Origin: a virus
Length of the DNA stretch: 30,222 bases
Direction: 5' to 3' (one strand)
Virus record (IMG/VR): IMGVR_UViG_3300032282_005105
Location: 1-30,222 of that record
Below are positions 20,837 to 24,171 of the stretch, piece by piece. The stretch's first letter is position 1. Each line of letters begins with the position of its first letter. Made by a program: the position numbers and the translations under genes. The notes beneath the pieces were generated by a model. It was not told where the DNA came from, did not search any database, and saw only the letters and a list, made by a program, of their open reading frames with translations.

Positions 20837-21175
20837 ATGAAGTACATCATTGAAATGACGCCAGTTGGTTCCGCTACAACCGCTGACACCGCGATCAACC
20901 TCGGTCGTCCTGTATTGATTACCACTGCACATCGTGGTGTGTTCTTTGGATACTCGCATGATACGAGTGGGGAGACGGTGAAACTGTCTCGCGCCCGTCT
21001 CTGTGTCTACTGGTCCGAGGATTGCAAGGGCTTCACGGGTCTGGCGTCTACTGGTCCCACGGCAAACTGCCGTATTGGTGAACCCGCTGACATTGAACTC
21101 CGCAATGTCACCTCGGTAACGGAAGTGACGGCAGTTGCCGTTACACAGTGGGAAGCTGGTCACTGGTCGAAGTAA
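20837..21175 (+). CDS. DUF6948-like phage protein
   Basis: 112 residues. GRPVLITTAHRGVFFGYSHD, then TVKLSRARLCVYWSEDCKGF and GLASTGPTANCRIG, followed by ELRNVTSVTEVTAVAVTQWE, fit a common small phage family that I remember as DUF6948. Function unknown. It has its own strong promoter and ribosome-binding site (AAGGAGT, 20823-20829) and is followed by a strong hairpin, so it is a single-gene transcription unit and may be highly expressed. It is richer in GC than its neighbours. Confidence 0.68.
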   Translation: MKYIIEMTPVGSATTADTAINLGRPVLITTAHRGVFFGYSHDTSGETVKLSRARLCVYWSEDCKGFTGLASTGPTANCRIGEPADIELRNVTSVTEVTAVAVTQWEAGHWSK

Positions 21176-21186
21176 TGGCACCAATG

Positions 21187-21228
21187 TAACGGGGTGGCGT
21201 ACGAGTATATTCTACGCCACCCCCGTTA
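21187..21228 (+). terminator. Strong hairpin, probable terminator
   Basis: TAACGGGGTGGCGTA (21187-21201) pairs with the complementary strand at 21213-21228 with one bulged C: a 15-bp stem and an 11-base loop. It lies 11 bases after the stop at 21175. The tail, TGTTATATCCTT, is only modestly T-rich, so it may end transcription or protect the 3' end of the transcript. Confidence 0.7.
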
Positions 21229-21246
21229 TGTTATATCCTTATAAGA

Positions 21247-21279
21247 GACATCCTATGAACATTCCTGATTGGACGAATA
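21247..21279 (+). repeat. Direct repeat, copy A (translation-start region)
   Basis: 33 bases covering the start codon and first codons of the Gly/Tyr-rich gene. It matches copy B at 21519-21551 at 31 of 33 positions; the first 22 bases are identical. Confidence 0.85.
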
Positions 21280-21530
21280 CTAACACTGGCTACGGCGACG
21301 GCTACGGCGACGGCTACGGCGACGGCTCCGGCCTCGGCTACGGCAATGGCGGCGGCAGCGACGAGGGCATCGGCTACGGCTTCGGCTACGGCGTCGGCTC
21401 CGGTTACGGTGACGGCGGCGGCCTCGGCTACGGCTACGGCTACGGCTACGGTGACGGCGCCGGCGGCTCCGGCCTCAGCTACGGCTACAGCAATGGCTAC
21501 GGCGACGGCTTCGCCGAGGACATCCTATGA
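21255..21530 (+). CDS. Gly/Tyr-rich low-complexity repeat protein
   Basis: 91 residues. After MNIPDWTNTNT the sequence is almost entirely Gly, Tyr, Asp and Ser in GYGDG-type repeats, beginning with three exact copies of a 12-base unit (GGCTACGGCGAC) at 21288-21323. The body is very GC-rich against an AT-rich genome. Glycine-rich repeats of this sort occur in phage virion or tail-associated proteins and in phase-separating proteins; no function is assigned. The alternative frame is also open (Ala/Thr-rich), as expected for such repeats. GAGA a few bases before the ATG is a weak site. The stop overlaps the next start. Confidence 0.68.
   Translation: MNIPDWTNTNTGYGDGYGDGYGDGSGLGYGNGGGSDEGIGYGFGYGVGSGYGDGGGLGYGYGYGYGDGAGGSGLSYGYSNGYGDGFAEDIL
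21288..21510 (+). repeat. GC-rich imperfect tandem repeat
   Basis: Degenerate GGCTACGG/GGCGACGG hexamer and 12-mer units make up the body of the Gly/Tyr-rich gene. The block could expand or contract by slippage. Its base composition contrasts sharply with its surroundings. Confidence 0.8.
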
Positions 21531-21821: not shown

Positions 21822-21953
21822 ATGCACTTGACAAGAGAACAACTGTTGTTTATGTTAAAGGAGGCATATCTACGCGGTACATGGGATATGATAATGTTCA
21901 AGGTGAGTTTGCCGTTAACACATCTGGTGAGCAGTTATGTGCTCCATGCTTAA
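21822..21953 (+). CDS. Possible small ORF (43 aa)
   Basis: Begins MHLTREQLLFMLKEAYLRGT with AGGTGG five bases upstream of the ATG. The first half looks like protein, but the second half overlaps the zinc-binding gene at 21881 in another frame. It may be a short leader or a decayed gene. Confidence 0.35.
   Translation: MHLTREQLLFMLKEAYLRGTWDMIMFKVSLPLTHLVSSYVLHA
21828..21856 (+). promoter_or_regulatory. Possible promoter for the 21881 gene
   Basis: TTGACA, 17-base spacer, TATGTT. It is followed at once by AAAGGAGG (21857-21864), a perfect ribosome-binding site but 16 bases from the ATG at 21881. Confidence 0.5.
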
Positions 21954-22747: not shown

Positions 22748-23425
22748 ATGATTTTACTATTAGGTGACATTCACGGTGATTACAGAGTAATGCAGAGAGC
22801 GATTGATTTGGCTGGTGAAGTTGGCGCCACCGCTATTATTCAAGTGGGCGATTTTTGTCTGTTCCGTGGATATGGAATGCCGAACGAACAGCAATTTATA
22901 GAGGTATTACGCACCTCAAAGATACCCGTATATTTTATTGATGGAAACCACGATGATTGCACCCGCTGGATTTGTTATACGGAAGTATCACAAATTTATC
23001 CAGACATTCCCTTCTATTACATCCCTCGTGGTACCGTAATGGAACTGGATGGTCGGACAATCGCATTTATGGGTGGTGCCGCATCCATTGATAAGAAATG
23101 GAGACTTGCGGACGGAATGCATTGGGATGAAAACGAACTTATCAGTTATGAACAATATGCCCGTATGCGTGATAATGCAGAGGGTAAAACTATTGATATG
23201 TTTATTACACATTGTCCACCGAGTAGTGTTATCGAAGAACATTTTGATAATCGTGCAAAACTGCAATTTGATGTAGGACTGAATTGGGAAGATCCTACAC
23301 AAAAGCAAATTGAAGAATTGTGGCATGCAATGGGTACGCCAATGATTTATTCTGGACATATGCATAGGGTTGTTAAGGGAATGACATATAGAATTTTGGA
23401 TATAAACGAGTTATTAGCCGTCTAA
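22748..23425 (+). CDS. Calcineurin-like metallophosphoesterase
   Basis: 225 residues with all five metal motifs: GDIHGD (6-11), VGDF (about 38-41), DGNHDD (about 65-70), THCPP and SGHMHR. The two-metal centre should be complete. It should hydrolyse phosphomonoesters or diesters, or possibly phosphoprotein or nucleic-acid phosphates, as in lambda phosphatase-like enzymes. It belongs to a different branch from the truncated LpxH-like protein at the window start. TAAGGAAAC precedes the ATG. Confidence 0.88.
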   Translation: MILLLGDIHGDYRVMQRAIDLAGEVGATAIIQVGDFCLFRGYGMPNEQQFIEVLRTSKIPVYFIDGNHDDCTRWICYTEVSQIYPDIPFYYIPRGTVMELDGRTIAFMGGAASIDKKWRLADGMHWDENELISYEQYARMRDNAEGKTIDMFITHCPPSSVIEEHFDNRAKLQFDVGLNWEDPTQKQIEELWHAMGTPMIYSGHMHRVVKGMTYRILDINELLAV

Positions 23426-23444
23426 ATTTGCTGTTTTCACGAAG

Positions 23445-23476
23445 TTCTATATACTTATATATAAATGTATATAGAA
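23445..23476 (+). promoter_or_regulatory. Hairpin enclosing a late-promoter-like box, before homing endonuclease
   Basis: TTCTATATAC (23445-23454) and GTATATAGAA (23467-23476) form a perfect 10-bp stem with a 12-base loop. The loop and the first base of the 3' arm contain TATAAATG (23460-23467), seven of eight matches to the T4 late promoter TATAAATA. On long transcripts the hairpin would fold just before the ATG at 23482; a transcript starting at the late box would lack the 5' arm. Confidence 0.6.
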
Positions 23477-23481
23477 ACTAT

Positions 23482-24171
23482 ATGAATTCAGCAAATTTTT
23501 ACATTTACGCACATTACATACCAGGAGAAACTTTACCTTTTTATATAGGTAAAGGTTCTGGATACAGAATGACCAGAAGAAATGATAGAAGTATCTGGTG
23601 GAAGCGGATAGTAAATAAGTACGGATTTGAAGCAAAATTATTACACGAAAATTTAAGTTATTCTGAAGCAAATATTCTAGAAAAAAAATTAATTAAAGAG
23701 TTTGGACGCCGTGACATAGGTACTGGTACATTAATAAATCATACTGATGGTGGAGAAGGAATTGCCAATCCTTCCAAGGAAGTTCGTAATAAAATTAGTG
23801 AGTCAAATCGTAAGCGAGTGGTGTCAGAAGAAACCAAAAGAAAAATAAGTCAATCCAGCAAAGGACATAAGTTGTCCGAACATACCAAATCAAAAATGAA
23901 AGGTAGAGTTCCGTGGAATAAAGGTATGAAAGGTATATCAGGTACTCCTCATACCGAAGAAACTAAACAAAAAATATCTGACACAAAACGAAAAGTAAAG
24001 GAACATTATATGGAAAACAAATCAAAATATACTACCATATTGATTAGCAAAGAAATAAATAAGCATATACGAGAATTCTGTGACAAGAATTTTGTAAATG
24101 CCGGCCCATTAACAGAGATGTTATGGTCTAATTTTATTTCTTCTAGTGTGAGCGGTAGTATAGTCCTATAA
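23482..24171 (+). CDS. GIY-YIG homing endonuclease with NUMOD3 repeats
   Basis: 229 residues. The N-terminal catalytic core has FYIYAHYIPGETLPFYIGKG (residues 6-25), which carries the spaced GIY and YIG strands as variants Y-I-Y and Y-I-G, then a basic helix. The middle has NUMOD3-type DNA-binding repeats: SEETKRKISQSSKG, SEHTKSKMKGRVPWNKG and TEETKQKISDTKR. This is a free-standing T4 Seg-like mobile gene; it cuts DNA lacking it and spreads by repair. The upstream frame to 23428 is excluded because it lies inside the regulatory hairpin. No strong ribosome-binding site is seen. Confidence 0.88.
   Translation: MNSANFYIYAHYIPGETLPFYIGKGSGYRMTRRNDRSIWWKRIVNKYGFEAKLLHENLSYSEANILEKKLIKEFGRRDIGTGTLINHTDGGEGIANPSKEVRNKISESNRKRVVSEETKRKISQSSKGHKLSEHTKSKMKGRVPWNKGMKGISGTPHTEETKQKISDTKRKVKEHYMENKSKYTTILISKEINKHIREFCDKNFVNAGPLTEMLWSNFISSSVSGSIVL

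Follow-up and report, generated by a model that had tools for sequence, protein, structure and literature searches.

A homing endonuclease gene of a T4-like phage fragment starts inside a nested hairpin that encloses a candidate late-type promoter box, a putative translational gate apparently taken from the invaded gene

The question raised by this locus is whether a free-standing homing endonuclease gene in a phage distant from T4 is restrained by the kind of leader that is known from T4 and its relatives. In I-TevI, I-TevII, I-TevIII, segB and mobE a hairpin hides the ribosome-binding site and a late promoter bypasses that hairpin (PMC2988022, PMC3014915); the DNA-binding domain of I-TevI moreover lets the protein repress the late promoter of its own gene (PMC2988022). 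A first-pass annotation had proposed that the same logic recurs before a GIY-YIG gene in the stretch of DNA analysed here (the window), a 30.2 kb viral fragment with T4-like phage gene content: it has a gene for a family B DNA polymerase and others that, judged by where they lie and how they look, encode clamp and clamp loader. The isolate with the nearest polymerase, at 43.7% amino acid identity, is Microcystis phage Mel-JY01, and a comparison at the DNA level to phage records returned no match and no near-identical record. On the profile matches given in Table 1 the gene in question is predicted to encode a homing endonuclease. Elsewhere in the window we noted a 128-amino-acid ORF (2141-2527) with a by-eye likeness to Vsr/PD-(D/E)XK endonucleases, which contains the window's longest inverted repeat (2282-2339), and a repetitive Gly-Tyr-rich ORF (21135-21530, GYGDGYGDG...) that lies in a GC-rich island. 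In relatives, two other GIY-YIG genes (L027:1300-1420 and L011:4110-4230) have a different strong GC-rich hairpin 5' of each; these hairpins have in common CCCC(C/U)AUGAGUA ... AAAGU(G/A)GGGG, and an Rfam search with them returned no matching family.

The endonuclease start codon at 23482 was found to lie inside a nested stem spanning 23424-23498, which is built from two perfect 10-bp inverted repeats. The inner repeat is present where the first-pass annotation had placed it, directly before the ATG, at a distance of five bases and not six, and the outer repeat surrounds both the inner one and the octamer TATAAATG at 23460-23467. The leader was folded with and without its 5' arm, as the annotation had proposed: the full leader has a predicted free energy of -28.1 kcal/mol (z -5.4, with none of 200 shuffles equally stable), and its 3' part alone has no predicted fold. 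When the 36 gene starts of the window were compared by fold, 23482 reached a z of -6.5 with the runner-up at -1.8, and it is the sole strongly structured start among them. A single 10-bp repeat is not rare, as the window holds 8 against 1.9 expected from shuffles; the nested pair was seen in 3 of 200 shuffles. The leader fold is beyond chance but the octamer is not, TATAAATG/A having 4 sites in the window as compared to 7 for a reversed control pattern. An Rfam search with the leaders of the window and its relatives returned no known RNA family. The earlier view that the stem hides a ribosome-binding site falls, as the search for a Shine-Dalgarno sequence before the window ATG, and hence for a consensus one within the stem, found none, and it is the start codon region that is closed in the fold; the endonuclease leader of the relative L009 does have such a sequence, GGGAG.

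Table 1. Coordinates of the features at and around the endonuclease leader in the window
Feature	Position	Strand	Basis or remark
Sigma-70-like promoter, possible source of a read-through transcript	21828..21856	+	TTGACA-17-TATGTT, 10/12; promoter scan as a whole not above chance
Upstream metallophosphoesterase gene	22748..23425	+	Pfam Metallophos E 9.4e-15; same direction as the endonuclease gene
Outer stem 5' arm AAATTTGCTG	23424..23433	+	Fold; perfect repeat; overlaps the phosphoesterase stop codon
UUCA pairing with UGAA 23483-23486 (U and G of the start codon)	23436..23439	+	Fold
Inner stem 5' arm TTCTATATAC	23445..23454	+	Perfect repeat; fold
Proposed clade-type late box TACTTATA	23452..23459	+	Clade motif; leader alignments; 30 nt before the ATG
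Degenerate first copy TATATAAA of tandem palindrome TCTATAGA	23458..23465	+	Ungapped 20/25 match, by eye, to L114 TACTTATCTATAGAACTCTATAGAA; overlaps TATAAATG
Inner stem 3' arm GTATATAGAA	23467..23476	+	Perfect repeat; contains the degenerate second palindrome copy
Degenerate second palindrome copy TATATAGA	23468-23475	+	Same L114 alignment; 10 bp from the first copy
GIY-YIG/NUMOD3 homing endonuclease	23482..24171	+	phrog_314 E 6.5e-21; NUMOD3 above cut-off
Outer stem 3' arm CAGCAAATTT	23489..23498	+	Fold; perfect repeat; within the first endonuclease codons
Small repressor-like ORF fused in frame to the endonuclease	24010..24171	+	Standalone relatives; resumed homology

Analysis of related genomes pointed to a candidate promoter motif other than that of T4. 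In G001, a relative of 104.9 kb, the octamer most often seen ahead of genes is TATTTATA, read on the coding strand, and the forms TATTTATA and TACTTATA that occur in this clade represent the reverse complement of T4 TATAAATA. Genes preceded by TATTTATA on the coding strand as compared to the reversed orientation numbered 9:0 in G001, 6:1 in G006, 3:0 in G005, 11:2 in G011 and 8:2 in Mel-JY01; in the control P-SSM7, a marine cyanophage with gp55, the ratio was 0:6, the opposite orientation that is expected from the published late box NATAAATA. The late-type box has this coding-strand reading in G001 (L067-L072), G005 (L085-L088), G006 (L078-L084), G011 (L089-L094) and Mel-JY01 (L073-L076). The boxes sit 18-41 nt 5' of the gene starts in G001; in Mel-JY01 they sit 31-44 nt before several genes, among them those for terminase and tail tube, while the capsid gene has no box in front. 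Published work was searched for TATTTATA in the role of a phage promoter, with no relevant result. In the leader alignment the window octamer TACTTATA, a variant that departs from the consensus, falls on TATTTATA of L009 and also aligns with TACTTATC/A/T (TACTTAT) of the repressor-gene leaders L176, L230 and L238, and it is located between the hairpin arms.

Pairing across this box was then followed through the related leaders. The L009 endonuclease leader folds at -34.4 kcal/mol (z -5.65) with its AUG fully paired, and its outer 5' arm, AAATTCGTTG, keeps the helix with a single two-sided change, C-G to U-A, and a single mismatch as compared to the window; the UUCA/UGAA pairing has its counterpart in UUCAU/AUGAA. 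As the search for endonuclease relatives with the same leader returned only L009 and identical copies, just two independent endonuclease leaders are available, and the covariation that the first-pass annotation had looked to for support comes down to a single compensatory change in the outer stem, set against that one mismatch. When the 40 nt before the box were paired with the region after it for each boxed gene of four genomes, the window (z -6.6), L009 (-4.9) and the repressor gene of G001 (-4.4) stood apart from the remaining 38 boxed genes, all at -2.4 or above. On swapping arms between leaders, with counts that ignore the relatedness of the leaders, the observed mean pairing was reached in 0 of 50000 permutations for all 17 leaders, and in 7 (wider segments) or 241 (tight segments) of 50000 for the 15 repressor leaders alone, while a control segment 60 nt further upstream gave no signal (7502 of 50000). 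Among the small-gene leaders, L006, L233, L236 and L238 have a clear stem, whereas in others it is weak or missing, and no convincing stem was seen in L025, L027 and L230.

The history of the locus could be read from these relatives. The endonuclease gene reads in frame into a 53-residue domain that is encoded by a separate small gene in relatives, with standalone forms of 52-56 amino acids in L006, L233 and L238. In a number of relatives (L006, L018, L020, L024, L025 and others) the small gene directly follows the phosphoesterase gene with no endonuclease between; L009 and its copies have a truncated GIY-YIG gene at this place, followed by the small gene as a separate gene. DNA homology between the window and L238 breaks off at the stop codon of the phosphoesterase gene and is found again from about 24002, shortly before the start and ribosome-binding site of the small gene, which places the insert between the leader repeat and that ribosome-binding site; the small ORF of the window retains its own ATG, with AAAGGA just 5' as ribosome-binding site. 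Because the small gene has its leader, consisting of box and palindrome, in relatives without the endonuclease, it appears that the endonuclease captured this leader, in other words that the leader was apparently inherited from the gene that it invaded. In the window, the small gene is most similar to those of L238 and L233 (85% and 81% amino acid identity) and the upstream gene to that of L006 (86% at the nucleotide level), a mosaic ancestry that would suit co-conversion beside a homing endonuclease. The region 23425-24171 has a mosaic appearance, as if the endonuclease and its 3' neighbour had arrived together.

Several other accounts of the leader have to be weighed against a gate. The first-pass annotation had taken TATAAATG for a gp55-dependent late promoter of T4 type with starts near 23473, in keeping with its position in the loop, one base off TATAAATA, with the marine cyanophage late box being NATAAATA (PMC2984593), and with an RNA beginning at 23473 that is predicted to be unfolded. 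In the relatives, however, TATAAATA is not enriched on the coding strand before genes and its reverse complement is, and TATAAATG aligns with the first palindrome repeat and not with the box, which leader comparisons put at 23452-23459; on these grounds TATAAATG was dropped as promoter. The annotation had also proposed to look for TATAAATG-like boxes before structural genes; before the terminase and tail tube genes of Mel-JY01 the box is TATTTATA. Profiles of gp55 and gp33 moreover had no match in G001, G005, G006, G011, G012 or the complete Mel-JY01, yet matched the positive control P-SSM7 at 2e-67 and 1.4e-35, the absence resting on Mel-JY01 and the large relatives, since the record that holds the window is itself a fragment of 30 kb; two further sigma profiles likewise had no match in G001, G006, G011, G012 and Mel-JY01. 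A T4-type promoter at this position is accordingly very unlikely, and the different motif of the relatives refutes the T4-type box at the leader while sparing the logic of the hairpin gate. The stem itself might have other origins. Correction of quasi-palindromes by template switching is established for T4 mutation hotspots, and such events in replication could hold the repeat perfect with no role for RNA and yield the single two-sided change seen; this is improbable, as arms on either side of the box are seen in the two endonuclease leaders and at the G001 repressor gene and at no other boxed gene, and as arm sequences vary between lineages while the pairing persists. That the stem is a transcription terminator or processing stem of the phosphoesterase gene, as its position after the stop codon and the run of the 3' arm into TTTTT might suggest, we consider least credible, given an AT-rich stem with a 55-nt interior and an L009 stem that has no comparable T-run; a terminator at 23424-23498 was rejected, the terminator scan having made no call there.

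A weightier alternative concerns the repeats as DNA. In front of the small repressor-like gene the tandem palindrome TCTATAGA follows the box, and nearly all repressor-gene leaders have it or a close variant directly after the box. Among 80 loci read from a scan with the palindrome pattern, a box-like word lies just upstream in 4 (L114, L131, L155 and L176), and in all of these with the exception of L155 a gene for a relative of the small protein follows immediately; viral contigs often contain the tandem palindrome by itself, and it is uninformative without a box. The repeats may be an operator of tandem 8-bp palindromes, 10-11 bp apart, bound by the Arc/MetJ-like neighbour and overlapping the promoter start, with the RNA fold a by-product of palindromic sequence. 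A spacing of 10 bp fits ribbon-helix-helix binding, as known from MetJ, and 7 of 10 members of the small-protein family match the Arc-like repressor phrog_582, albeit weakly (best E 2.9e-4). The repressor is putative by fold, however, as a PDB search with the small protein returned no match, and its monomer model, with helices only, is of low confidence (pLDDT 68); that model was set aside as too weak to use. The repeats of the window are also degenerate, and an operator accounts for the inner repeat and leaves unexplained the outer pair of arms, one on each side of the box, whose pairing involves endonuclease codons or a ribosome-binding site. We regard an operator as a real possibility, somewhat less likely than not, and as compatible with a translational gate, so that both could hold.

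The best explanation, and in our judgement a probable one, is a translational gate with an internal late promoter that was captured by the homing endonuclease. Building on the observed fold, clade box motif, leader homology and insertion, we infer its timing, start site, translational effect and repressor binding as follows. The box and tandem repeat would first have served the small Arc-like repressor gene, whose relatives share this box in their leaders and, in a number of cases, have a predicted stem over the ribosome-binding site; insertion between the tandem repeat and that ribosome-binding site would have brought the endonuclease under the captured leader, so that the outer arm may now pair with endonuclease codons. 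Read-through RNA from the upstream genes would fold into the stem and close the endonuclease start region, so that little endonuclease protein would be made early. Late in infection transcription would begin from the box at about 23465, some 13 nt past its first base, a position taken from the T4 spacing of about one helical turn below the box (PMC2988020), and the resulting RNA, having lost the 5' arms, would be open and translatable. With a start at that position -15..+12 is predicted to be more open, the mean going up from 0.22 to 0.48 for the window and from 0.26 to 0.50 for L009, although the window start codon itself goes from 0.35 to 0.17 unpaired and only the surrounding region relaxes. 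The main weakness of this reading is that the window copy of the leader has no Shine-Dalgarno sequence, so that the gate could guard an already weak start.

The principle of hairpin gating is already established, and what differs here is the box, the apparent derivation of the leader from the invaded gene and the small domain fused to the endonuclease. Like the leader of I-TevI in the T4 td intron, with its start hairpin on early and middle read-through RNA and an internal late promoter that omits the 5' arm, the window leader combines, by fold and comparison, a start-enclosing hairpin with a late-type box inside, and to this extent the proposed I-TevI-like logic survives with a box other than TATAAATG. 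I-TevI is intron-encoded, however, whereas the window endonuclease is free-standing, has a box of reverse-complement type and no ribosome-binding site, and is fused to a domain that belongs to a neighbouring small gene. T4 segB and Aeh1 mobE are likewise free-standing homing endonuclease genes with a start hairpin and late promoter (PMC2988022, PMC3014915), but the window leader also occurs in relatives without an endonuclease, before the gene that was invaded. The late promoters NATAAATA of marine T4-like cyanophages are similar in being 8-bp AT-only boxes shortly before late genes (PMC2984593); here the word is reversed on the coding strand, in a clade whose complete member has no recognisable gp55 or gp33. 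With MetJ/Arc/CopG-type autoregulators the locus has in common a small protein encoded directly behind tandem 8-bp palindromes, although the sequence match of the small protein is weak and its repressor role putative. More speculatively, and on present evidence rather doubtful as a whole, the endonuclease may have taken over the entire control unit of the invaded gene, comprising late box, operator, hairpin and fused repressor domain, the fusion protein may silence the promoter of its own gene, as I-TevI does by means of another domain, and the clade may run its late genes from the reverse complement of the T4 box without gp55.

If the captured gate is real, hairpin gating of homing endonucleases would reach a distant T4-like clade, and a selfish gene could gain such gating by inserting into a leader that was already gated. 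The reverse-complement box combined with the lack of recognisable gp55 and gp33 makes the way in which late transcription is specified in this clade directly testable.
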